Source of the DNA: Verrucomicrobiota bacterium
Lineage (GTDB): Bacteria; Verrucomicrobiota; Verrucomicrobiia; Palsa-1439
Direction: 5' to 3'
Length of the DNA: 32,108 nt
NCBI GenBank assembly: GCA_016871575.1
Contig: VHCW01000053.1
Span: 1 to 32,108 of the forward strand
Part shown: positions 4,517-20,403 of the stretch, piece after piece
How positions within the stretch are numbered: position 1 is the stretch's first letter
How the letters are laid out: each line of letters begins with the position of its first letter
Position numbers and translations under genes: made by a program
Notes under the pieces: model-generated
Database searches by the model: none
Told to the model about the DNA's origin: nothing
The model's input: the letters and a program-made list of their open reading frames with translations, nothing else

Positions 4517-5986
4517 TCAGAATTTGTCGTCGAGCACGATGTTGTTCTTCTGGAGCGTGGTGCCCTCGACGCGGGCCAGTTCGACCAGCGATTCGCTGTA
4601 GTCGGACCGCGCGCGGATTTCGGCGGAGCGGGCGGCGGCCAGTTGGGATTGGGCCTGCAACACCAGGAAACTCGTCGAGGTGCCGGCGCGCAATTTCGTT
4701 TCCTCGGCCTTGAGCGATTCTTCGCCCAGACGGCTCGCGGCGCGGGTGGCTTCCACGCGTTTCAGGTTGGTCTGGACGCGCCCGACGGCGTTGTCCACGG
4801 CCACGATGATGTTCTGTTCGAGTTGCTTCAACGCCAGCAACGACTGTTCGCGGTCGAGGCGGGCGATATTGTAGTTGGCGCGGGCCTGGCGGTTGCCGAT
4901 GGGGAAACTGATGGAGATGCCGACGCCCCATGCGTTGTTTTCGTTGCCGAGCTGGCGCCCGGTGAGCGTGTGGAAGCCGCTCTCGGCGAGGCCGTTCATG
5001 CCGTAGCTCGCTTTCAGGTCGAGTTCCGGCCACAGTTGGTTGCGGTTGTATTTGACGAGAATGTTCCGGCGTTCCACTTCGTGCCTGGCGGCGATGAAAT
5101 CCGGCCGTTGCTCCAGCGCGAGGCGCGTGCTGCGCGCAACGTCAGTCTCCACCACCTCCACCACCGGGTAATCCACGGGAACCAGGGTTTCGCCCAGCAG
5201 GAAGCGCACATCGGTGCTGATGAGCCGTTTGAGCGCGTTCTCGTTGTCCTTGATGGCACGCTCGGAAACGATGACCGCTTCTTCGCGTTCTGCGACGCCC
5301 GCTTCCGCCTGCGTCACGTCCAACGGCGACATTACGCCGACTTGCACGCGTTTGCGGTTCTCGTCGAGCAGGCGCTTGGCGCGATTGAGGTCTTCGAGCT
5401 TGGCCTTGTGGTCCTCGATGGCAAACACCAGTTCGTAATAGGCGCGGCTGACCTCGCTGACCTTGTTCATCACCAGCAACGCAAAGCTTTGCACGGCGAT
5501 GTCGCGGCTCTTTCGCGCCACGCGAATACGGGCGAGGTTCGGCTCGAAGCCGAAATTCTTCAACAACGGCTGTCTCAACGTGATGGCTGCCGTGCCGGTG
5601 TAGAGGTAATCGGAATAATCCGTGCCGCCGGTGCGGTAGTCCTTGAGGGACAGTCCATAGCCGGTGCCCGTCGGCAATAAGCCCGCCAAGCCGAGGCTGG
5701 GACTGAACTGGCGTTGGATGTCGGAATCGCTACCGAGGACCGGGGTGCGCGAATCGTTGTAGTTCGCAGCGGCGACGAATGCCGGGTCGAACACGCCCTC
5801 TTGCTGGAGAACACCCCACGTGGCAATGCTGGGATTGATCCGCTCGGCGCGGAGTTCCAAGTTGTCGGCCAGCGCCCGTTCGACGCAGGAGCGCAACGTC
5901 ACGGAACGAACCACTTGATTGACTTCGGCGGCTTGCGACCAGATCGCCGCCAGACAAAGATTGAGAAGCAACATGCGTGTCTTCAT
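4517..5986 (-). CDS. TolC-family outer-membrane efflux protein
   Basis: The 489-residue protein starts with a Sec signal peptide (MKTRMLLLNLCLAAIWSQAA) and continues with the two OEP repeats of TolC-type channels: long helices rich in E, R, A and L with LRQPLLKNFG at about 145 and GISISFPIGNRQARA at about 370. Trimers of such proteins form the outer-membrane and periplasmic tunnel of type I secretion or RND efflux. No membrane-fusion or pump partner is adjacent. The ATG at 5986 was chosen because it begins the signal peptide; upstream in-frame sequence is not protein-like. It precedes lgt by 4 bp. Confidence 0.92.
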   Translation of the reverse strand: MKTRMLLLNLCLAAIWSQAAEVNQVVRSVTLRSCVERALADNLELRAERINPSIATWGVLQQEGVFDPAFVAAANYNDSRTPVLGSDSDIQRQFSPSLGLAGLLPTGTGYGLSLKDYRTGGTDYSDYLYTGTAAITLRQPLLKNFGFEPNLARIRVARKSRDIAVQSFALLVMNKVSEVSRAYYELVFAIEDHKAKLEDLNRAKRLLDENRKRVQVGVMSPLDVTQAEAGVAEREEAVIVSERAIKDNENALKRLISTDVRFLLGETLVPVDYPVVEVVETDVARSTRLALEQRPDFIAARHEVERRNILVKYNRNQLWPELDLKASYGMNGLAESGFHTLTGRQLGNENNAWGVGISISFPIGNRQARANYNIARLDREQSLLALKQLEQNIIVAVDNAVGRVQTNLKRVEATRAASRLGEESLKAEETKLRAGTSTSFLVLQAQSQLAAARSAEIRARSDYSESLVELARVEGTTLQKNNIVLDDKF

Positions 5987-6035
5987 AGTAGGCGCGCACA
6001 TGATGCCCGAAGACCGCGCAAAGTCAATGCGCCGG

Positions 6036-6455
6036 TCAAGGCGCGCGGCGCACAATGATTTGCCGGGCAATATCGGCATCCAGCGCCAGTTCCGTCTCCC
6101 CGACACGCACGAGGTAGGCCGGCCGTTTCTGTTGGAGCGTCAACCGCGCTCCGGGCGTCATGCCGTACACCGCCAACGCCCGGCCGCGCCGTTCCGCGCC
6201 GTGCGCCATGCCGACAAATTCCACCGTCTCGCCCGCGGTCAGTTGCGTCAGTTCCAGCGCGCCGGCGCCGGTCATGGGTTTGTGAAACCATTTTGCCAGC
6301 CACCGCAGCGGATGCGATGGCTCGGGAAATTCGTACTGGCAACTCGGACACTTGATCAACTTGCAGAACTTGCCCATCGGGCAGCCGTGCGTGCAGACCG
6401 CATCGGTCTTCTCGAACTCAAACCCGCATAATGGACAATGAAGTCTCTCGCTCAT
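6036..6455 (-). CDS. feoA: FeoA-domain protein with N-terminal cysteine-rich region
   Basis: A 139-residue protein. The C-terminal 75 residues form a FeoA (SH3-like) domain: LTQLTAGETVEFVGM, then RGRALAVYGMTPGARLTLQQ, ending with ELALDADIARQIIV. FeoA assists FeoB in ferrous iron import. The first 45 residues hold seven cysteines in CPLC, CTHGC, FC and CPSC arrangements, which could bind zinc, iron or an Fe-S cluster; ordinary FeoA is about 75 residues and lacks this. The ATG at 6455 begins one base after the feoB stop, so the gene is translated with feoB. The cysteine-rich part may replace the Fe-S protein FeoC, but that is a guess. Confidence 0.88.
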   Translation of the reverse strand: MSERLHCPLCGFEFEKTDAVCTHGCPMGKFCKLIKCPSCQYEFPEPSHPLRWLAKWFHKPMTGAGALELTQLTAGETVEFVGMAHGAERRGRALAVYGMTPGARLTLQQKRPAYLVRVGETELALDADIARQIIVRRAP

Positions 6456-6456
6456 C

Positions 6457-8283
6457 TCAGAACCCCATCCAGTGCGCCGCCTTGTCCACGATGCCGCCGA
6501 CGAGGAACGCGAACACAAACACGAACAGCGTGATCCACGCCGCCGTTTTCTTGCCCAGTTCGCGCGCGATCATGAACAGCGTCGCGATGCACGGCATGAA
6601 CAACGTGATCGTCACCATCGCCACCAGCACGTTGTGTGGCGAGAGCCGGCCGTCCTTCGCCGCGTCCAGCAGGAAGACCGCGCCGTAGTCGCGCCGCAGG
6701 AACCCGACCAGGAACGCCTGGGCCGTCTCCGGCGGCAGGCCGAGCCAGCCTTTCACGAGCGGCTCGCCGAGGCGCGCGAGCTTGTCGAGCAGGCGCAACT
6801 TGTCGAGCACGAACAGAACCGCCGTGCCGAGCACGAACAACGGAATCACTTCCTTCAAGTACCATTCCAGCCGTGCCAGCGTTTTCATCGTGACATTGCC
6901 CAGCAGCGGCCGGCGCATCGGCGGCAGTTCGAGGATGAAATCGCTCGTGTCACCCTGGTAGAGTTTCGCCGCGAGCCAGCCGATCAGGAACGTCACGCCC
7001 ACCATCAACAAAAACCAGAACGCCGCCGCCGCCGCGGAGACACTGGCCATCATCGCCAGCAACACGCCGAGTTGCGCCGAGCACGGCACCGCCAGCGCCA
7101 GCAACAGCGTCGTGATCACGCGTTCCTTGCGCGTTTCGAGAATGCGCGTCGTCATTGTCGCCATCGTGTCGCAGCCGAGGCCGAGCACGATCGGCAGCAC
7201 CGCCTTGCCGTTCAACCCCATCGCGCGGAACACCCGGTTCACCATCACCGCCAGCCGCGGCAGATAACCCGAATCCTCCAGCACGCCGAACAACAGGAAA
7301 AACGTCAACACAATCGGCAGCACAATCGCGAACCCGTAACTCAACGCCATCGTGATCAAACCGTAGTCGCCAACGAAGAAATCGTGGATGAACCGCGTCA
7401 CCGGCTGATCCATCGGCAACAGCGCGTCGGCTACGCGCGTGGCCGCGGGACTGATGTAACCGTCGAAGACGGTTTTCTCCAGGAAGTTCACGCAGGTTCC
7501 GGCGCCAAACATGCCGACGAACCAGAACGTGAACAACAACGCCACCGCCCCCATCGCCAGCCCTTTCACCGGGTGCATCGCCCACCAGCCAAGGTTCTGC
7601 GCAAACGTCGCCCGTCGTGGTCGCACATGCGTGTACGTCTGGCCGAGCAGGTCGTTGATCGCCAGTAATCCCGGTTGTGCGCCGGTCTCCAGACCGCGCA
7701 CTTCCTCCGACCGAAGGTCTCCTGTTCCTCCATCGGAGACCTGACGGTCAGGCGCAACGGCGGGGTCAGGAGACCCCCGCCGAACATCGAAGCGCGGCAC
7801 CGAGGCCGTTCCCACGCTCTTCTGCACAAGATGGACGCCCGTGTTGGCCGTGGCAATCGTCGGCACGACCGGAATGCCAAGCAACTCACTGAGTTTGCGG
7901 GCATCAATGTGGCCGCCGCAGGCGTCCAGTTCATCCATCATGTTCAACACCAGCACGACCCGTCGCTGGAGCGTGGCCAGTTGGTGCGTCAACAACAACG
8001 CCCGCCGCAGGTTCTTCGCATCGGCCACCTGCACAATTACCGCGTCGGGATGATCGCGAACCACGTCGCACGTCACCCGCGCATCCTCGGTCCGCGCCGC
8101 CAGTTCATTGACGCCCGGCGAATCAATCACGGTGAACTTTTCGCCATCGAGCGACATCTCGCCACGGGTGATCTCGACGGTGGTGCCGGGGTAGTTGGAG
8201 ATGACGACGAATTTGCCGGTGAGCTTGCTGAAAAGCACGCTCTTGCCGACGTTCGGGTTGCCGACGAGGATGATCGTGTTCAT
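6457..8283 (-). CDS. feoB: Ferrous iron transport protein B
   Basis: The 608-residue inner-membrane ferrous iron transporter carries the G domain: GNPNVGKS (8-15), the NYPGTT switch, DSPG and NMMDELD. The C-terminal membrane part has the paired Gate motifs (GLGCDTMATM..R and VPCSAQLGVLLAMM). The ATG at 8283 overlaps the stop of the upstream gene (ATGA). Between the G domain and the first membrane helix lies a proline/glycine/arginine-rich stretch (about residues 167-202). It is encoded by a complex palindromic DNA element and looks like an in-frame insertion. The frame and all motifs are intact, so it is probably functional. It is shorter than the 773-residue E. coli FeoB. Confidence 0.96.
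   Translation of the reverse strand: MNTIILVGNPNVGKSVLFSKLTGKFVVISNYPGTTVEITRGEMSLDGEKFTVIDSPGVNELAARTEDARVTCDVVRDHPDAVIVQVADAKNLRRALLLTHQLATLQRRVVLVLNMMDELDACGGHIDARKLSELLGIPVVPTIATANTGVHLVQKSVGTASVPRFDVRRGSPDPAVAPDRQVSDGGTGDLRSEEVRGLETGAQPGLLAINDLLGQTYTHVRPRRATFAQNLGWWAMHPVKGLAMGAVALLFTFWFVGMFGAGTCVNFLEKTVFDGYISPAATRVADALLPMDQPVTRFIHDFFVGDYGLITMALSYGFAIVLPIVLTFFLLFGVLEDSGYLPRLAVMVNRVFRAMGLNGKAVLPIVLGLGCDTMATMTTRILETRKERVITTLLLALAVPCSAQLGVLLAMMASVSAAAAAFWFLLMVGVTFLIGWLAAKLYQGDTSDFILELPPMRRPLLGNVTMKTLARLEWYLKEVIPLFVLGTAVLFVLDKLRLLDKLARLGEPLVKGWLGLPPETAQAFLVGFLRRDYGAVFLLDAAKDGRLSPHNVLVAMVTITLFMPCIATLFMIARELGKKTAAWITLFVFVFAFLVGGIVDKAAHWMGF
7678..7784. repeat. Compound palindromic element inside feoB
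   Basis: This stretch contains several nested inverted repeats. TGCGC..GCGCA frames GGTCTCCAGACC (7678-7700). GGTCTCC and GGAGACC face each other across about 12 bases. GGCGGGG and CCCCGCC are separated by 8 bases near the right end. It encodes the low-complexity linker of FeoB and looks like a mobile palindromic repeat carried in frame. The boundaries are approximate; homology could extend to about 7818. Confidence 0.6.
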
Positions 8284-9050
8284 TTGCCCGGTCCAAACGT
8301 CCATGTTAGTCCGACAGTCGCCGTGACGTCGGGCGCGGGCCGGCGCAGGCCGCCGCCGATGGCGGCGTCGAGCACCAGCGAGTCGGTCAGTTGCCAGCGC
8401 ACGCCGCCGCGCACGTGGGCGTCAACGTCGTGCGTCGTGATCAACGGTGTTTCGGCGAACACCTCCGCAACAAGCTGCCACTTCGCTGCGACTTGGTAAT
8501 CCACTGCAAGACCGTAGTGCAGGACATCGGCAAACGTCTCGTCGGAACGGTCGCCCGTCCAAGTGTGGCCGATGTTGAGGTGCAGGTTGCACTTCTTTGT
8601 CAGTGCCTTTGACACAATCCACATCAGGTCAAAATCCGTCCGGCCCGTGCCCAACCCCTTCTCGTAGCTGGCCGTCGGGAATTTCACCGTCAACACGAGC
8701 GACTGGTCGGCCCAGAACCGGTCCGCGGTGAGCACTTTCAGCTTCGAGCCGAGCGTCAGGTCGCCCATGTCGGTCACGGCTTTTTCGGCGCCGAGCTCTT
8801 CCTTTTGTTCCTCGATCTGGCCACCGAAGCCGGCGCCGATTTCCCAGCGCGGCAACAACCCGTAGGCCAGCCCAAACGGGAAATCAAAATGCGTTAATCC
8901 GTTGTTACGGACGTAGCCGAGGCCCGCCTCGAACTCGAACTGCCGATGCGCGACCGGCTCCGCGTCGTCAATGGTCAAAGGACGCCCTGCATGAACGCTG
9001 GACGCGACACAGGCGAGCGCACTGAGCAGCAGGGCAAGAGACCAACTCAC
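8280..9050 (-). CDS. MetA-like outer-membrane protein (phenol-degradation MetA family)
   Basis: A 256-residue exported protein with a signal peptide (MSWSLALLLSALACVASSVH-A-G) followed by amphipathic beta strands. They have the typical alternation and phrases of the Phenol_MetA_deg outer-membrane family: FEFEAGLGYVRNNG, FPFGLAYGLLPRWEIGAGFG, and a C-terminal VTATVGLTWTFG strand. Members are predicted beta-barrel transporters of unclear substrate. The start is a GTG one base after the cytochrome c stop. Its end overlaps the feoB start. In this operon it may admit or sense iron or a chelate across the outer membrane; that is inferred from position only. Confidence 0.75.
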   Translation of the reverse strand: MSWSLALLLSALACVASSVHAGRPLTIDDAEPVAHRQFEFEAGLGYVRNNGLTHFDFPFGLAYGLLPRWEIGAGFGGQIEEQKEELGAEKAVTDMGDLTLGSKLKVLTADRFWADQSLVLTVKFPTASYEKGLGTGRTDFDLMWIVSKALTKKCNLHLNIGHTWTGDRSDETFADVLHYGLAVDYQVAAKWQLVAEVFAETPLITTHDVDAHVRGGVRWQLTDSLVLDAAIGGGLRRPAPDVTATVGLTWTFGPGK

Positions 9051-9051
9051 G

Positions 9052-9330
9052 TCAGCGACCTCCTTTCACTACCGCATTAGTGGTGAGGCGCGCGGCGGCA
9101 GCGTAAGCGTTCAAGTCAGCAATCTGTGACTCGGTGAGCGGGACTTTCTTCCGCATCTTCTGCATCCAACTATCCCACTCGGTTTCGTTGTACTTCGCCG
9201 GGTCGTAGAGCTTGTGGCAACTCGCACACTTGGCGACGTAGAGTTTGCGCCCGACAGGCGGCTCTGCGCCCGCCGCGCCGACGAGCGGCGCGGCGAGCAA
9301 CAGGCCGAGAATGACGGTACACATTCGCAT
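9052..9330 (-). CDS. Small exported cytochrome c
   Basis: A 92-residue monoheme c-type cytochrome. MRMCTVILGLLLAAPLVGAAGA is a signal peptide, followed by the heme site CASCH (about 34-38, in YVAKCASCHKLYD). A W..WMQKM segment could supply the axial methionine, and the C-terminal helix contains the LTESQIADLNAYAA pattern. It therefore acts in the periplasm as an electron carrier or redox domain. The ATG at 9330 overlaps the stop of the upstream beta-barrel gene (ATGA), which fixes the start; the open frame continues upstream to 9462 only as a shadow. Presence between two outer-membrane genes in an iron operon suggests ferric/ferrous redox chemistry (inference). Confidence 0.88.
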   Translation of the reverse strand: MRMCTVILGLLLAAPLVGAAGAEPPVGRKLYVAKCASCHKLYDPAKYNETEWDSWMQKMRKKVPLTESQIADLNAYAAAARLTTNAVVKGGR

Positions 9331-10151
9331 CAGAAGTGGATCCCAATCAGGAGACGGACCTCGACGCGCTCGTGGGCGTCGAGCACGAAGTTCGGATTGC
9401 CGTCCGGGTTGCCGACGAGGTTTCGCCCGTAAATCTGTGGTTGGACGGCGAGCGTGGCCCACCAGCGTTCACAGGTGTAGTTCACCGTCGGCCCGAGGAA
9501 CAGCGCAACGTGTTTCCACTCGCGATACTCCTCGATCTCGGAAACGACGCGGAACTCACAACCAAGCGACCAACGTTTGGCGATCTGTCGAGTCAGGCCA
9601 AAGTCCAGTTCGAGTTCACCTTCGGTCTCGTGCTCGTGGAGGTTCCATTCGGTTTCGTGGACGAGGTTGAGCGCCCATTTCCAGTCGCCGTGGCGCTGGC
9701 CGAGGATGATCTTTTGTTCAAGCGCGGCCTCCTCGCCGGAGTAACGCGGCTCCAGATACAACGTCAGCCCGACCTTATGCTCCGCCGGGTTCCAGAGCAT
9801 GTAACGGTTCTCCAGCGACACACCGCGGAACTTGAACTCCGAGGTCGAGATCCCCGTGTCGGTGTCCTTGTAACTGTCATGACGGCCATTGAGGTAGAGA
9901 GAGGCGGTGTAACGGTCAGTCACGCCGTACTCGAACTCTTCCCGGATGTCCCAACGAGTGAAGTTCGCCTTGCCTGCCTGGTCGCTGCGCCCGGCGCGCA
10001 AGGTCACCCACTGTTCGAATTCCGCCGCGCCTGCCGGCAGGACTTCCGGTTCATACGTGTATGCGAACCGCCGCTCCGTTGCGGAAGCGGCTCCGAGGCT
10101 CGCGGTCCACACGATCAATGCTACGATACATATCTTCTTGCTGCACTGCAT
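9330..10151 (-). CDS. Outer-membrane beta-barrel-like protein of the iron operon
   Basis: A 273-residue protein with a signal peptide (MQCSKKICIVALIVWTASLG, cut near ASA-TE). Its body is built of alternating aromatic/charged strands (RFAYTYEPEVLPAGAAEFEQ, REEFEYGVTDRYTASLYLNG, KVGLTLYLEPRYSGEE), ending in the phenylalanine expected of an outer-membrane barrel (LLIGIHF). The ATG at 10151 has AGGAGAT eight bases upstream; the open frame to 10406 is not coding beyond that. It resembles hypothetical barrel proteins of the DUF6662 type, but I am not certain of the family. It lies 191 bp after the DtxR-type gene and overlaps the cytochrome gene. Confidence 0.75.
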   Translation of the reverse strand: MQCSKKICIVALIVWTASLGAASATERRFAYTYEPEVLPAGAAEFEQWVTLRAGRSDQAGKANFTRWDIREEFEYGVTDRYTASLYLNGRHDSYKDTDTGISTSEFKFRGVSLENRYMLWNPAEHKVGLTLYLEPRYSGEEAALEQKIILGQRHGDWKWALNLVHETEWNLHEHETEGELELDFGLTRQIAKRWSLGCEFRVVSEIEEYREWKHVALFLGPTVNYTCERWWATLAVQPQIYGRNLVGNPDGNPNFVLDAHERVEVRLLIGIHF

Positions 10152-10242
10152 GGTCCATCTCCTGAATACTGAGACTGGCACGGGTCTCTTGTGTTGGGCG
10201 GGACGCACTTCGCTGTTGCCAGCGCTGAGCGTTCCCGCTACT

Positions 10243-10261
10243 GTTCGTTTCGAGAACGAAC
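10243..10261. promoter_or_regulatory. Inverted repeat upstream of the outer-membrane/Feo genes
   Basis: GTTCGTT and AACGAAC face each other across a 5-base spacer, about 92 bp upstream of the 10151 start. The 191-bp gap between the regulator gene and the barrel gene could hold a second, internal promoter, and this repeat is its best operator candidate. No clear promoter hexamers were assigned. Confidence 0.35.
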
Positions 10262-10342
10262 CTGTTTCGTTTCTCGCTGGGGGCTGCGATGCGGGGTGCC
10301 AATCCATGCTCGCGCCCTCAGTCTTTTTCTGTACGACAAATC

Positions 10343-10888
10343 CTAGGGCTGCGGTGACGCTCCTTCCTTCGGCGACAGCCGCGCCAACAGACATCGCCCC
10401 GCGCACAACTCACATCGCCCCGGCGTGGGACAGTCCGCCTCAAACCGGCGGAACCGCCGCAACAGGTCATTCGCCGAAGTGTCTTCAGAAGCCAGAAACT
10501 TCATGAACTGGACCAACCGCTCTGCCGTCTTGGGACTGATCAGGTGCTCAATCTTGCAACTGTCCACATCGGCTTGTTCCGGCGATAACCCCAACGCCTC
10601 GCACAAGAACATTTTCAGTGCCTCGCGCTTTGCCAGCACGGCATCCACAATCTCCTGACCATGCGGCGAGAGCTTGACCATCCGATGCTCGTCGGTCACC
10701 ACCAGCTTGCGCTTCTTTAGGGTGCGCATCGCAAGCGAGACGCTGCCGCGGGTGATGCCGAGTTGCTTGGCGATGTCGGAGACGCGCGCCCAGCCGCCGT
10801 ACTGCTGGCCCATCTCGTGGATGGCCAGCAGATGATGTGCGGCGCTGTGCGTCAGCTCGTTAGCGTCAAATTCCTTCCAAGTTTCCAT
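10343..10888 (-). CDS. DtxR/MntR-family metal-dependent transcriptional regulator
   Basis: A 181-residue regulator with a winged helix (about 30-75: VSDIAKQLGITRGSVSLAMR) and the DtxR dimerisation/metal-binding domain (about 95-135). The motif C111-K-I-E114-H115-LIS matches the Cys/Glu/His metal ligands of DtxR/MntR. There is no C-terminal SH3 domain. Instead the tail has C153, C159, C162 and C166 (CPTPGRCELCAGRC), unlike ordinary DtxR and able to bind zinc or an Fe-S cluster. It is the first gene of the iron operon and probably represses the operon when ferrous iron is plentiful. A palindrome overlapping its promoter suggests autoregulation. Confidence 0.9.
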   Translation of the reverse strand: METWKEFDANELTHSAAHHLLAIHEMGQQYGGWARVSDIAKQLGITRGSVSLAMRTLKKRKLVVTDEHRMVKLSPHGQEIVDAVLAKREALKMFLCEALGLSPEQADVDSCKIEHLISPKTAERLVQFMKFLASEDTSANDLLRRFRRFEADCPTPGRCELCAGRCLLARLSPKEGASPQP

Positions 10889-10900
10889 GGGCGCGTTGAG

Positions 10901-10930
10901 ATACTATACAACTGTTTGGTATGTCAAACA
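10901..10930 (-). promoter_or_regulatory. Promoter and operator-like palindrome of the dtxR-feo operon
   Basis: Reading the minus strand, TTGACA (10922-10927) and a -10-like TAGTAT (10901-10906) are 15 bp apart. A perfect palindrome TGTTTG-N6-CAAACA (10913-10930) overlaps the -35 box, 25 bp upstream of the regulator ATG. That is a natural position for metal-responsive autorepression. The spacing is short for a consensus promoter. Confidence 0.5.
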
Positions 10931-10935
10931 ATTTT

Positions 10936-12294
10936 CTAGTAAACGAATGCTTCCACTTCGTAACGAGCAACATACGGCTTAGGAAAAATCTGTAATCCCG
11001 CGCGGATTTCCTGTTCTTGGTTCCGGATTTGTTCCGGCGACAACAACGGCGCGTCGTACGCGCTCCCCGGCTTCACCACCAGCGGCGAGAAGTAAATGTA
11101 GTCGCCCTTGCCGAGCGGCAACGCGTTCAGCACGCGCACCGTCTCCCGCACGTGCGCTTCCGCAAACCGCTCCCCGCCCGCCCCGAGCAACACGATCACG
11201 CCGACTGATGTTCCGGCTGCCTTCGCTGCGGTCACGGTTGCCACAACGCTCTCCGCAGTCGCCGGCTTGCGGAGCCAACGCAACAGTTCATCGCTGCCGG
11301 TTTCCATGCCGACATAGATGCGACTAAGACCGAGTTGTGCAAGCGCAGCGAAGTCAGGCCGCCGCGTGAAGGTGTCAACAAACGATGCAATGCCGGTAAA
11401 TAGTGGAACGGGCGTCTCGCCTGTTCGGGATGGCGGGTTCCCCGAAGAAACGGGCGGGACGCCCATTCTACTACCGCTGCCGAAACAAAACCGGAACTTG
11501 TCGTGGATGATCCGCAACATCTCCATCAGCGTCTCGTGCGGCAACATCAGCGCGTTGGCTTCGCCGAGGAAGATCGAGTTGCGATGAGTCTTGCCGTGGA
11601 AGGCGACGACGGCGTCAACGTGCGCCACGAATTCTTCCGGCGTTTTCGCGCGGAACGAACGGTCCCGGTAAAAATCGCAGAACAGACAACCGTGATACGC
11701 GCAGCCTTCCGTCGCCTGGAACACGAGCGCGTTGTACTGGTCCGGCGGCAGGATCGCGACGTCGCGGTACAACGCCCGGAAACTGGCCGCGTCGGCGTGC
11801 GAGGCGGCAATGTCGAAGTGCGCAGCGAGTTCGAGGAGTGGCCGAAACAATTCCGGAGCATTTTCCGGCCGCGCGAATTCGATTCCGGAGGGCGACGCTC
11901 CGTCGTCGCCCTTCCCGCCCGTGGCGCTGACGGAGCAGCGCCCTCCGGAGAAAGCCTCCAAGACGCGCAGCACACGCTCGCGAGCGCGCTCGATGATCGA
12001 GTCGTCGGCGACGATTTCCCGACGGATGCCTTCGCTTTTGGTGGTGTGGAGGATTTTCCCGGAGAGCGAGCGTCGGTGGTAGTCGGCAAGCGTGACGAAC
12101 TTGGTGAACCGTCCTTGGAGGTCGTAGTGCAGCGCGATGTCATCGCTGAACGTCAGCGTGAACTCGGCGGGGCCGAGCGCGAGATAGACTTTGGTGTTGT
12201 CGGGAAGTCGAAGCTGGAGGCCGACACTGAATCCCGGCACGTCCGCGAGGGAGCGGTCGCGTTGGTAGCGGAGGATGTCAGGCTGGTTGTCCAC
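10936..12294 (-). CDS. Radical SAM protein of unknown function
   Basis: A 452-residue protein starting with GTG at 12294. The [4Fe-4S]/SAM site is EGCAYHGCLFCDFY (about 211-224), a C-x4-C-x2-C spacing like that of B12-independent radical SAM proteins with TEGCxxxxCTFC motifs. Downstream are a GEANALML glycine-rich strand and IYVGMETGSDELL (about 350), typical of the TIM barrel. The N-terminal 150 residues are unfamiliar. Two palindromic repeats (11401-11473 and 11884-11949) add low-complexity segments in frame. It is upstream of, and convergent in strand with, the iron operon. Truncated copies of its 5' end occur at 13964-14106 and 14745-14874. Substrate unknown. Confidence 0.85.
   Translation of the reverse strand: MDNQPDILRYQRDRSLADVPGFSVGLQLRLPDNTKVYLALGPAEFTLTFSDDIALHYDLQGRFTKFVTLADYHRRSLSGKILHTTKSEGIRREIVADDSIIERARERVLRVLEAFSGGRCSVSATGGKGDDGASPSGIEFARPENAPELFRPLLELAAHFDIAASHADAASFRALYRDVAILPPDQYNALVFQATEGCAYHGCLFCDFYRDRSFRAKTPEEFVAHVDAVVAFHGKTHRNSIFLGEANALMLPHETLMEMLRIIHDKFRFCFGSGSRMGVPPVSSGNPPSRTGETPVPLFTGIASFVDTFTRRPDFAALAQLGLSRIYVGMETGSDELLRWLRKPATAESVVATVTAAKAAGTSVGVIVLLGAGGERFAEAHVRETVRVLNALPLGKGDYIYFSPLVVKPGSAYDAPLLSPEQIRNQEQEIRAGLQIFPKPYVARYEVEAFVY
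11401..11473. repeat. Imperfect palindromic repeat inside the radical SAM gene (site 1)
   Basis: The left arm (11401-11426, starting TAGTGGAACGGGCGTCTCGC) and right arm (11447-11473) are inverted copies with about four mismatches around a GC-rich centre. It encodes the proline-rich insert MGVPPVSSGNPPSRTGETP between FGSGS and the FTGIASFVDTF strand of the enzyme. Confidence 0.7.
11884..11949. repeat. Imperfect palindromic repeat inside the radical SAM gene (site 2)
   Basis: Two 27-base arms (11884-11910 and 11923-11949), both beginning TCCGGAGGGCG when read inward, flank a 12-base centre; the arms differ at a few positions. The 66-bp unit is a multiple of three and encodes the insert SGGRCSVSATGGKGDDGASP, so the reading frame is kept. 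Confidence 0.72.
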
Positions 12295-12353: not shown

Positions 12354-12381
12354 TTGGTGGGGTGCAGGGCATATTATCAGC

Positions 12382-12672
12382 ATGAATCGTGATGAAGTCA
12401 TCCAACGACTCCGCCAACGGCAGGAGGAATTGCGTCGTCGCTTCCGGGTGCGGCGATTGGCGGTGTTCGGCTCGTATGCGCATGACGTTCAACGCCCCGA
12501 CAGCGATCTGGATTTGCTGGTGGAGTTTGAGGAGACGCCGGGGTTGTTTGATTTTGTCCGCTTGAAGGACGCCCTCACGCAGTTGCTCGGTGTGAAGGTG
12601 GATTTGGTGATGGAAGACGCCCTGCGGCCCCGGCTGCGCCAACAGGTGTTGCGCGACGCCATTGCAATATGA
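12382..12672 (+). CDS. mntA: MNT-type nucleotidyltransferase antitoxin (MntA-like)
   Basis: A 96-residue minimal nucleotidyltransferase. The Pol-beta active-site motif is visible: FGSY (29-32), then the catalytic pair in SDLDLLVEF (D42, D44). In HepT/MntA type VII toxin-antitoxin systems this protein transfers AMP to a tyrosine of the HEPN toxin and so silences it. The gene ends in an ATGA overlap with the HEPN gene, as is usual. The ATG at 12382 follows a TATTAT box by only a few bases, so the leader may be very short. Confidence 0.88.
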   Translation: MNRDEVIQRLRQRQEELRRRFRVRRLAVFGSYAHDVQRPDSDLDLLVEFEETPGLFDFVRLKDALTQLLGVKVDLVMEDALRPRLRQQVLRDAIAI

Positions 12673-13016
12673 CCGCGCCCCGCGACTTTGTGGCCTACCT
12701 GTGTGACATCCGAGATGCCGCCGTCAAGGCGCAGCAGTTTGTGGCGGGCATGACGTTTGAACAGTTCACGGCGGATGAAAAGACCTCTTTTGCGGTGGTG
12801 CGCTGCTTGGAAATCATTGGCGAGGCTGCTGGACGGATTCCCGCGTCGCTACAGGCGAAGTATCCGGGATTGCCGTGGCGGGAAATGACCGGGATGCGCC
12901 ACGTGCTGATTCACGATTACATGGGCATCAACTACGGCGTGGTCTGGAAGACGGTGCAAGAGGATTTACCGCCCTTGTTGCCGCAACTCGACCAAATGAT
13001 CGCTGAGAATTCGTAA
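12669..13016 (+). CDS. hepT: HEPN-domain toxin (HepT-like, DUF86)
   Basis: A 115-residue all-helical HEPN RNase toxin. The active-site motif R-x4-H-x-Y is exact (R77, H82, Y84 in RHVLIHDY), and the tyrosine is the residue AMPylated by the partner MNT protein in characterised HepT/MntA pairs. The RCLEIIGEAA helix (about 45-54) is typical of DUF86. Start codon overlaps the antitoxin stop (ATGA), giving coupled translation. Confidence 0.9.
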   Translation: MTAPRDFVAYLCDIRDAAVKAQQFVAGMTFEQFTADEKTSFAVVRCLEIIGEAAGRIPASLQAKYPGLPWREMTGMRHVLIHDYMGINYGVVWKTVQEDLPPLLPQLDQMIAENS

Positions 13017-18062: not shown

Positions 18063-19253
18063 TCAGGATGCGCTGATCGTGCCGGCCGGGATGCCGATTT
18101 CTTCGTCGGTGAGGTAGCAGGCAGGGTCGGGGGCCCACGGGTCGTGGTGGACTTGGGCGGCACGGACGCGGAAGCTGCCGCCGCAAATCTCTTGGAACCG
18201 GCAGGAGCTGCACCGGCCTTTCAGGAGCGGACGGCGATTTCGGAGGTGACGAAGCAACGTAATCTTGTTGTCGGTCCAGATCTGGCTGAACGGGCGTTCG
18301 CGGACGTTGCCGAGGATGGCGGTCTGCCAGAATTGGTCGGGGTGGACGTTGCCTTGGGTGTCTATGTTGGAGATGCCGACGCCGCTGGAGTTGGCGCCGC
18401 CGCCGTTCCATTTCATCCACTGATAGACTTTGTCGGCGTAGGCGGGGTCGCGTTCGCGCAGCTTGAGGTAGATGTAGGCGTTGTCAACGTGGTTGTCCAC
18501 GGTGAGGATTTCCTTTTCGATGCCGCGTTTGTGGAAGTCCTCGGTGCGTTCGAGAATGATGTCGAGCGCGCCTCGGATCTCGGCGTTGGTCAACTCGTCG
18601 GCGGCGTTGCCGCGGCCGCTGTACACGAGGTGATAGAAGCAGGCGCGCTGGATGCCTTCCTTCTCGATGAAATCAAAAATCTGGTGGAGGTCCTGGCAGT
18701 TGCGCTTGGTCAGCGTGAGGCGGAGGCCGACTTTCTGGCCGACGGCCATGCAGTTGCGGAAGCCGCGGACGGCGCGGTCGAACGCGCCTTCGACGCCGCG
18801 GAACTGGTCGTTGGTCGGGCCGATGCCGTCGAGCGAGATGCCGACGTAGGTGAGGTTGTTGGCTTTGAGCTTGGCGGCGACGGCTTCATCAATGAGCGTG
18901 CCGTTGGTGGAGAGGGTGACGCGGAGGCCTTTGGCGACGGCGTAGGCGATGAGGTCGAGGAGGTCGGGGCGAGCGAGCGGTTCGCCGCCGGAGAAGAGGA
19001 CGGCGGGGACTTTGAAGGCGGAGATGTCGTCGAGGACGGTCTTCGCTTCGGCGCCGGTGAGTTCGCCTTCGTAGGGCTTGGCGTAGCTGTCGGAGTAACA
19101 GTGGACGCAACGGAGGTTGCAGGTGCGGGTGATGTTCCAGACGACGATGGGCCGGCGCGCGGCGGCGGACGTGGGCGCGCCGTGGCCGTGGCCGTAGCGG
19201 AGGGCGTCAGCCGGTTGGGCGGCGCCGCAGAAGAGTTTGGTCAGGTTAACCAC
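18063..19253 (-). CDS. ahbC: 12,18-didecarboxysiroheme deacetylase AhbC (radical SAM)
   Basis: A 396-residue radical SAM enzyme. The SAM cluster motif CNLRCVHC is at 45-52, followed by LFSGGEPLARPD and STNGTLID. The C-terminal SPASM-like region has CSSCRFQEICGG and the closing WAPDPACYLTDEE, a hallmark of AhbC/NirJ-type proteins. AhbC removes the acetate side chains of 12,18-didecarboxysiroheme to give Fe-coproporphyrin III in siroheme-dependent heme b synthesis. The GTG start at 19253 overlaps the ahbD stop by 8 bp. NirJ (heme d1 synthesis) is the main alternative; pairing with AhbD favours AhbC. The siroheme decarboxylase genes ahbAB are not in the window. Confidence 0.88.
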   Translation of the reverse strand: MVNLTKLFCGAAQPADALRYGHGHGAPTSAAARRPIVVWNITRTCNLRCVHCYSDSYAKPYEGELTGAEAKTVLDDISAFKVPAVLFSGGEPLARPDLLDLIAYAVAKGLRVTLSTNGTLIDEAVAAKLKANNLTYVGISLDGIGPTNDQFRGVEGAFDRAVRGFRNCMAVGQKVGLRLTLTKRNCQDLHQIFDFIEKEGIQRACFYHLVYSGRGNAADELTNAEIRGALDIILERTEDFHKRGIEKEILTVDNHVDNAYIYLKLRERDPAYADKVYQWMKWNGGGANSSGVGISNIDTQGNVHPDQFWQTAILGNVRERPFSQIWTDNKITLLRHLRNRRPLLKGRCSSCRFQEICGGSFRVRAAQVHHDPWAPDPACYLTDEEIGIPAGTISAS

Positions 19254-20403
19254 GCGCCTCCCTCTTCCCGCCGCGAACAGGGTTCGCGACTACAGATTTC
19301 GGTTCGTAAATGCAGTAGGGTTCCTCGGCCATGTAGTTACCGTCTTCCTCGTAGAAGGCGCGGGCGCGACAACCCATGCAGACTTTCTTGAACTCGCAAC
19401 AGCCGCATTTGCCTTCGAGCTGGTCGTCGTCGCGAAGACGTTGGAAGACCGGTGAATTATTCCAGATGTCAGCCATGCTCTGGCGTTTGATGTTACCGGC
19501 GGAGACGGGGAGGTAGCCGCACGGGAAAACGTCGCCGGTGTGGGAGACGAAACAAATCGCGCTGCCGGCGAGGCAGCCTTTGGTCATGGCTTCCATGCCG
19601 GGGCGCGTTGTAGTGGCCGCCGTCCCGGCGGCGCGGGAATGCGGATGAGCCGCCGGGACGGCGGCCACTACAATTTTGTCTTCAGCGCGACGCTGGTGAA
19701 AAATCCGGAAATAGTGCGGGGCACAGGTGGCTTTGAGGTGGAGTTCGCTGAGCTTGGATTTGTCGTACATCCAGTTGAGGACGCGCTCGTATTCCTCGGC
19801 GGGTAGCATGGCCGACTCGGCGATCTGGACGCCGCAGCCGACGGGGACGAGCATGAACAGGTGAAGCGCGTCGGCGCCGAGGTCGCGGGCCATCGCGTAG
19901 AGCGTGTCAACTTGGTGGACGTTGTGCTTTGTGACGGTGCAGTTGATCTGCATGGACATGCCGAGGCGCTTGAGGTTGCGGAAACCGTTGAGCGCGGCGG
20001 CGAGCGAGCCGGGCTGGCGTCGGAAATTGTCGTGGGTGGTTTCGTCGGCGCCGTCAATCGAGATGGCGACGCGTCGGATGCCGGCGGCGACGATCTTCTG
20101 GGCGACGGGTTCGGTGATGAGGGTGCCGTTGGTGGCGAGGGCGACGGCGAGGCCGCGGTCGCGTGCGTGCGTGGCGATGTCGAAGATGTCGGGACGAAAC
20201 AACGGTTCGCCGCCGGAGAGGACAAGGATCGGTTTGGCAAACTCGGCGAGATCAGTGATGAAACGGAACGACTCCTCGGTGGAGAGATCGTTCTTCATCA
20301 ATTCGCGGCTCACATCGAGCCGCCGGCAGTGGACGCACTCGAGGTTGCAACCTGCGGTGGTCTCCCAAAACAGGAGGCGGAGTTGATTCGATGGTGTCGT
20401 CAT
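19246..20403 (-). CDS. ahbD: AdoMet-dependent heme synthase AhbD (radical SAM)
   Basis: A 385-residue radical SAM enzyme that in the family oxidatively decarboxylates Fe-coproporphyrin III to heme b. The N-terminal LRLLFWETTAGCNLECVHC (cluster Cys 19, 23, 26) and VLSGGEPLFRPD are typical. The C-terminal auxiliary-cluster region contains CGYLPVSAGN, CGCCEFKKVCMGCRARAF and EEPYCIYEP. The ATG at 20403 overlaps the cytochrome stop (ATGA), so the upstream open frame to 21087 is a shadow. A 66-bp perfect inverted repeat (19608-19673) inserts about 22 residues before the KGCLAGSAIC strand, in frame. Confidence 0.9.
   Translation of the reverse strand: MTTPSNQLRLLFWETTAGCNLECVHCRRLDVSRELMKNDLSTEESFRFITDLAEFAKPILVLSGGEPLFRPDIFDIATHARDRGLAVALATNGTLITEPVAQKIVAAGIRRVAISIDGADETTHDNFRRQPGSLAAALNGFRNLKRLGMSMQINCTVTKHNVHQVDTLYAMARDLGADALHLFMLVPVGCGVQIAESAMLPAEEYERVLNWMYDKSKLSELHLKATCAPHYFRIFHQRRAEDKIVVAAVPAAHPHSRAAGTAATTTRPGMEAMTKGCLAGSAICFVSHTGDVFPCGYLPVSAGNIKRQSMADIWNNSPVFQRLRDDDQLEGKCGCCEFKKVCMGCRARAFYEEDGNYMAEEPYCIYEPKSVVANPVRGGKREARG
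19608..19673. repeat. 66-bp perfect inverted repeat inside ahbD
   Basis: Two 25-base arms (19608-19632 and 19649-19673, outer end TTGTAGTGGCCGCCG) are perfect inverted copies around a 16-base centre. The length is a multiple of three and ahbD stays open, encoding VVAAVPAAHPHSRAAGTAAT. The right arm recurs exactly in etfA (23014-23038). Confidence 0.88.

Follow-up and report, generated by a model that had tools for sequence, protein, structure and literature searches.

Introduction

In Geobacter sulfurreducens, Fur-boxed porin-feoA-feoA-feoB genes have as their neighbor a Fur-boxed cytochrome c gene, genX (Rodionov et al., 2004, PMC545781), and a 2021 eLife study proposed flavinylated extracytosolic iron reductases that involve FMN_bind, ApbE and PepSY-like proteins (PMC8238504). 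Here we describe a Feo locus on contig VHCW01000053.1, which was analyzed whole as a single stretch of 32,108 bases (the window; C53 of a 5.19-Mb genome) and whose relatives by homology are Verrucomicrobiota of the Pedosphaera/Limisphaerales type. We interpret this locus, with a probability of roughly 0.6, as a DtxR-controlled, modular ferrous-iron uptake operon that combines outer-membrane barrels, a periplasmic cytochrome, FeoA and FeoB with an RNA leader.

The locus resembles the Geobacter porin-feoAB system in having a porin before the Feo genes, a single-signature cytochrome c nearby and a site for the iron regulator, but in Geobacter the porin is OprB, the regulator is Fur, the cytochrome lies in a separate operon and no RNA leader has been described (PMC545781). 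An OprB porin does adjoin FeoB2 in two relatives of the window (G028 and G044). The clusters of PMC8238504 also encode an extracytosolic redox protein together with iron transport, and the family of one window barrel, OMB1, pairs with FMN_bind-ApbE-b561-like genes elsewhere; here, in contrast, a monoheme cytochrome would serve as the redox carrier, joined to a barrel and FeoB. FeoB with its G and Gate domains and FeoA are shared with textbook FeoABC, from which the locus differs by the lack of a recognized FeoC and by its extra barrels, cytochrome, own DtxR, leader RNA and zinc-ribbon FeoA. Porin-cytochrome conduits and Cyc2 likewise bring an outer-membrane barrel together with a c-type heme, but in the window the genes are separate, there is one heme, the 12-stranded barrel carries no heme motif, and no conduit is implied. 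An earlier note on this DNA had suggested a possible pathway beyond textbook Feo systems. That idea was preceded by the Geobacter work (PMC545781); what is new here is the different barrels, the control by DtxR and the cytochrome inside the operon.

Results

Organization of the operon

The six genes run in the order dtxR-barrel-cytochrome-MetA-feoB-feoA, as the earlier note had described, and all lie on the minus strand. The features, in the direction of transcription, are:

10913..10930, minus strand: predicted palindromic operator TGTTTGACATACCAAACA, overlapping a –35-like TTGACA, 25–42 bp before dtxR
10343..10888, minus strand: dtxR, DtxR/MntR-family metalloregulator, 181 residues (PF02742, 2.4e-13)
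10152..10321, minus strand: predicted structured RNA leader, 170 nucleotides, between dtxR and OMB1
9330..10151, minus strand: OMB1, predicted barrel with signal peptide and 12 strands, DUF6662 family, 273 residues (PF20367, 6.4e-13)
9052..9330, minus strand: CytC, small monoheme c-type cytochrome with signal peptide and CASCH motif, 92 residues
8280..9050, minus strand: MetA-like outer-membrane barrel, COG4313 type, 256 residues (PF13557, Phenol_MetA_deg, 1.2e-17)
6457..8283, minus strand: feoB, FeoB1 lineage, 608 residues (PF02421, FeoB_N, 1.1e-47)
6036..6455, minus strand: feoA, Cys-rich zinc-ribbon-like N-terminus, 139 residues (PF04023, 3.2e-11)

Overlaps or 1-bp gaps, claimed earlier for every junction, are found at four of the five when these are read from the sequence (OMB1/CytC, TGATG; CytC/MetA, 1 bp; MetA/feoB, ATGA; feoB/feoA, 1 bp), but dtxR and OMB1 are 191 bp apart and this gap contains a conserved RNA-like element. 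The upper limit given earlier for the operon, 10930, coincides with the end of the palindrome upstream of dtxR.

Conservation of the barrel-cytochrome-Feo arrangement

With OMB1 as query, we obtained 23 named loci, mostly from Verrucomicrobiota, and the family was found in 68 of 384 genomes of the class and 13 of 175 genomes of the phylum; such locus counts depend on hidden Markov model cut-offs and simple open reading frame calling, and many of the compared genomes are metagenome-assembled drafts. At least four other genomes, including one from a different class, have barrel, cytochrome and Feo genes under the same DtxR. G005 carries dtxR-ferritin-OMB1-CytC-feoA-feoB, and G044 shows dtxR-ferritin-OMB1 at the end of one contig and OMB1-CytC-(feoA)-feoB at the end of another. 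In G002, the last codons of OMB1 are followed by CytC-feoB1-feoA at a contig end, and dtxR with the leader stands at another end. G427, from another class, has dtxR-OMB1-CytC-MetA-feoA-feoB, which is the window order with feoA and feoB swapped; its feoB (L191 5270-6030) is reduced to the G domain plus the final ~50 residues, reflecting an internal deletion or an assembly error. Partial versions also exist. G013 has dtxR-ferritin-OMB1-CytC, and in G403, a genome of another class, a divergent dtxR adjoins OMB1-feoB. Four f35 genomes encode a distant relative of OMB1 with feoB behind it; feoA, where it was called, lies between the two.

In the FeoB tree, the window protein groups with that of G002 (support 100/99), and those of G005, G044 and G028 stand apart; therefore, the association of Feo with barrel and cytochrome arose or was exchanged more than once. 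Because it is recurrent in independent genomes, the arrangement exceeds chance. Co-occurrence of the extra genes with feoB across genomes, which the earlier note had named as support for its idea, is thus observed, with two unrelated FeoB lineages, and we reject the idea that they stand next to feoB in this genome only, since barrel, cytochrome and Feo genes are together in G005, G044, G002 and G427.

Regulator and operator

The dtxR product has the metal-binding and dimerization domain Fe_dep_repr_C (PF02742, 50.3 bits; cut-off 27). Its N-terminal DNA-binding domain scores 15.7 bits against PF01325 (cut-off 26), a generic winged helix scoring higher, and its best NCBIfam match is MntR (7e-16, below the cut-off). 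The window DtxR is 57–69% identical to the products of other dtxR genes that have the same operator. The palindrome, TGTTTGACATATCAAACA, is nearly invariant and is present upstream of dtxR in 11 genomes; at 6/6 loci it lies over a –35-like TTGACA before dtxR. Allowing up to three mismatches, there is one site in the window's own genome, and near-perfect matches in other genomes are mostly at dtxR (G002, G003, G008, G010 and G427 among them, with a looser version in G006). We infer that the palindrome is a conserved DtxR-type operator; given its site, the protein family and the conservation, DtxR would, with ample metal, act here as a repressor over the –35 box of its own gene.

The same dtxR heads several other gene sets: ferritin-FTR1 in G010 and similarly in G003, where a 324-residue gene stands ahead of FTR1; ferritin-TonB receptor-TonB-FeoB2-OprB-CytC in G028; ferritin-TonB receptor-ABC genes-FeoB2 in G006; and ferritin-feoA-feoB2 in G036. 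The ferritin of these operons is of family PF00210. The dtxR-ferritin head thus appears to be the stable part, behind which uptake modules would have been exchanged. Iron is the likely subject, since the related operons include genes for ferritin, FTR1, TonB receptors or OprB porins.

A conserved candidate RNA leader before the uptake genes

The dtxR-OMB1 gap, whose sequence is present once per genome, is 71% identical to the corresponding gap of G427 and shares 68% identity with the gap between ferritin and OMB1 in G013. A covariance model built on the 5' half of the leader found it in 8 of 196 genomes of the class, one copy each, which with G427 makes nine genomes. In all nine, it follows this operon's dtxR or ferritin and precedes the first uptake gene. 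The gene behind it is OMB1, a TonB receptor, feoA or the 324-residue gene ahead of FTR1, except in G002, whose contig stops at this point. The leader consists of P1 (10277-10321, loop UUGGCAC), P2 (10251-10276), an AUAG-like single-stranded stretch, a variable P3 and P4 (10171-10188, loop GUGCCA), after which comes the Shine-Dalgarno sequence of OMB1.

Folding z-scores are –3.31 and –3.05, and the P1/P2 pairing holds in 88.9% of cells, as opposed to 39–49% in slid controls. Pairing of 4–7 bp between loop 1 and loop 4 is possible in 8/8 complete copies, and in G427 both sides of this kissing loop have changed together (GGUAC/GUACC). Comparison supports the proposed structure well, though not overwhelmingly. 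The 3' strand of P4 can alternatively pair with the Shine-Dalgarno region, over 7 bp in G003, over 6 bp in G006 and more weakly elsewhere, the pairing in G028 and G044 being no better than shuffled. The summed energy is –57.5 compared with –35.6 ± 5.2 for shuffled downstream sequence (0/2000), a significance that is overstated, as purine clusters are not preserved by the shuffling.

Rfam gave nothing above chance on the window leader and, at gathering thresholds, no match to the leader in L191, L020 or L209, and the open-access literature searched held nothing relevant on an iron-sensing riboswitch or a conserved Verrucomicrobia RNA. The leader therefore appears, as far as these databases and this literature show, to be undescribed and the newest part of the operon. 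We rejected a dispersed repeat, there being one copy per genome, and a coding extension of the barrel, on account of single-base insertions between relatives and of the unrelated genes (TonB receptor, FeoA) that follow in G006, G028 and G036.

Outer-membrane barrels

OMB1 matches DUF6662 (PF20367) with 49.3 bits (cut-off 27), a family of which we found no mention in the open-access literature searched. Its AlphaFold2 model has 12 strands (mean predicted local distance difference test, pLDDT, 84; predicted template modeling score, pTM, 0.79), and its closest folds are FapF (5o65) and the COG4313 channel 4rl8, both with a Z of 21.6. From this model, OMB1 is predicted to be a channel with 12 strands and the FapF/COG4313 fold. 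The MetA-like protein scores 65.2 bits (cut-off 22) against PF13557, which we take to be of the COG4313 type, and has a 63% identical counterpart at the same position in G427. COG4313/PF13557 channels such as 4rl8 thus share their 12-stranded fold with OMB1 and their PF13557 membership with MetA; what differs here is the linkage to FeoB and CbiMQO, which suggests metal traffic.

A MetA-like relative lies directly upstream of CbiM-CbiQ-CbiO in G007, and another adjoins CbiM in G161. At locus level, the MetA-like gene is directly 5' of CbiM in L142 (548-3640, which also has CbiQ and an ABC ATPase) and L143 (2363-4901). Gene neighborhoods suggest that the MetA-like barrel travels with inner-membrane metal importers (FeoB, CbiMQO) and that, upstream of CbiM, it is possibly an outer-membrane channel for cobalt or nickel.

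The cytochrome and other redox partners of OMB1

CytC has a single CXXCH motif. In an alignment of 15 CytC relatives, some of which look like lipoproteins, C35, C38 and H39 of this motif and M59 are invariant, and Met59 is a candidate axial heme ligand; a CXXCH with a distal Met is the pattern of class I cytochromes c. CytC falls below the Pfam cytochrome cut-offs (PF00034, 19.7 vs 21.3; PF13442, 19.2 vs 27), and a fold search with its heme-free model gave no useful match, as expected without heme. A second copy of this cytochrome type in the same genome (C14, L137 6799-8396) adjoins a ferritin-like gene and a gene for a DUF4405 membrane protein.

At the 82 OMB1 loci with room to tell, the next gene is CytC in 35, FMN_bind in 14 and neither in 33. 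With CytC or FMN_bind next at so many loci, a link between OMB1 and a periplasmic redox protein is common. FMN_bind after OMB1 mostly continues with ApbE and a b561-like protein, a redox set of the type connected with iron reduction in PMC8238504. Loci with OMB1-FMN_bind are L023, L024, L025, L048, L060, L061, L063-L069, L071 and L104. In L027, L032 and L033, the OMB1-CytC pair lies directly behind genes for TolC, a membrane fusion protein and RND, the membrane fusion protein of L033 having a heavy-metal-binding-like motif.

FeoB and FeoA

FeoB has the FeoB_N (PF02421), Gate (PF07670) and FeoB_C (PF07664) domains, all over cut-off, and also exceeds the cut-off of TIGR00437 (343 bits). An in-frame dispersed repeat follows its G domain (window 7690-7800; 22 matches in the genome), and a second, distant FeoB is encoded elsewhere in the genome (C47). 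FeoA scores 43.6 bits against PF04023 (cut-off 23) and is 69% identical in G002, where the same Cys-rich N-terminus is found.

Neighboring genes

One further gene bears on the history of the operon:

10936..12294, minus strand: radical SAM gene (PF04055)

In G010, G008, G007, G044 and G036, feoB1-feoA is preceded by other genes, radical SAM where identified. G010 encodes near feoB1 an AhbD-like and an AhbC/NirJ1-like protein (best NCBIfam matches, all below cut-off), which would be of the siroheme-dependent heme pathway type, and a 462-residue radical SAM protein, to which the window radical SAM gene is orthologous (42% identity) and whose gene lies immediately ahead of feoB1. AhbC/NirJ1-like and AhbD-like radical SAM genes are also present in the window, at 18063-20391 on the minus strand. 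In the window, the block dtxR-OMB1-CytC-MetA sits between radical SAM and feoB1, and this synteny suggests that two neighborhoods were fused.

The radical SAM gene also contains a peptide, RMGVPPVSSGNPPSRTGETPVPL (window 11420-11470), that resembles an in-frame dispersed repeat and is unmatched in the alignment with the G010 ortholog. On the other side of the operon, a TolC-family gene (4517-5990, minus strand) begins ~49 bp past feoA on the same strand, may share the transcript and is followed by lgt. At ~12380-13016 on the plus strand, a small nucleotidyltransferase gene and a HEPN-like gene were seen by eye and resemble an MNT-HEPN toxin-antitoxin pair.

Discussion

Our model is that the OMB1 and MetA barrels pass iron or small iron complexes across the outer membrane, as their fold and their genetic linkage to importers suggest, and that FeoB with FeoA would then import Fe2+, as is established for their families. 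In the periplasm, the monoheme CytC might pass electrons so that incoming iron becomes or stays Fe2+. This is the weakest step of the model: reduction of Fe(III) for FeoB by CytC is plausible, but OMB1-CytC pairs occur in settings other than iron operons as well, which makes the redox step the least certain. A fused or multiheme conduit (Cyc2, MtrCAB) was rejected, as the genes are separate, there is one CXXCH and the barrel has no heme domain. At the RNA level, the leader could adjust how the uptake genes are translated independently of dtxR, and of ferritin in the relatives, on the same transcript, a P4 hairpin held by the kissing loop competing with a helix that masks the Shine-Dalgarno site. 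We propose tentatively, at somewhat less than even odds, that the leader represents a cis-regulatory RNA of a new class, perhaps a riboswitch that senses a metal or a cofactor, and that it uncouples iron import from regulator and storage through this competition.

Several observations weigh against an iron uptake operon of this composition. Most OMB1-CytC pairs are away from iron genes: they stand by themselves or follow either an AraC regulator or Cus-type RND efflux genes. A protein with a single heme cannot alone conduct electrons through the outer membrane. G002, G005 and G044 lack MetA, and in G427, where it is present, feoB is internally deleted and the contig is possibly misbinned. Covariation in the leader is moderate, with 8 two-sided changes, which 17 of 500 shuffles equaled or exceeded, and no copy was found in G005 despite the operon there.

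The distribution of OMB1 raises the alternative that OMB1-CytC is a general outer-membrane/periplasmic redox module, for example for disposing of electrons or coping with metal stress, which an iron operon captured and which has no direct role in import. That few of the 82 loci, whether followed by CytC or by FMN_bind, are near iron genes speaks for such a module, as does the position of several behind Cus-type RND genes or AraC regulators. Yet where the pair accompanies Feo, it does so with FeoB proteins of two unrelated lineages and in every case under the same DtxR, and other OMB1 relatives adjoin FeoB in G403 and in the four f35 genomes, so that we consider mere capture rather unlikely. 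CytC could also work in the opposite direction and oxidize Fe2+, protecting the periplasm from Fenton chemistry or harvesting electrons, in an operon that balances import with detoxification. Ferritin in the same operon in relatives would fit this, as would the ferritin-like and DUF4405 neighbors of the second CytC of this genome and the presence of FTR1, whose yeast namesake works with an oxidase, in the operon of two relatives; but oxidation would counteract the import of Fe2+ by FeoB, no oxidase-type partner is present, and we regard this function as improbable. That the operon serves another metal, manganese or cobalt, with DtxR as an MntR-type sensor, seems highly improbable to us: the sub-threshold MntR match and the MetA relatives beside cobalt/nickel CbiMQO point that way, but the recurrent partners of this DtxR are ferritin, FTR1 and FeoB.

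Fe2+ crossing of the outer membrane before FeoB is usually ascribed to diffusion through general porins, and the ferrous-iron uptake operon proposed here names two barrels and a redox carrier. Because these components are specific and are encoded together with Feo and its regulator, the outer-membrane step becomes testable by gene deletion. Since MetA-like barrels are encoded next to FeoB as well as next to CbiMQO, outer-membrane channels dedicated to metals may form a wider family. Finally, the leader RNA would place a further, post-transcriptional layer of control on iron uptake in bacteria, and it offers a small, defined element in which metal sensing can be tested.

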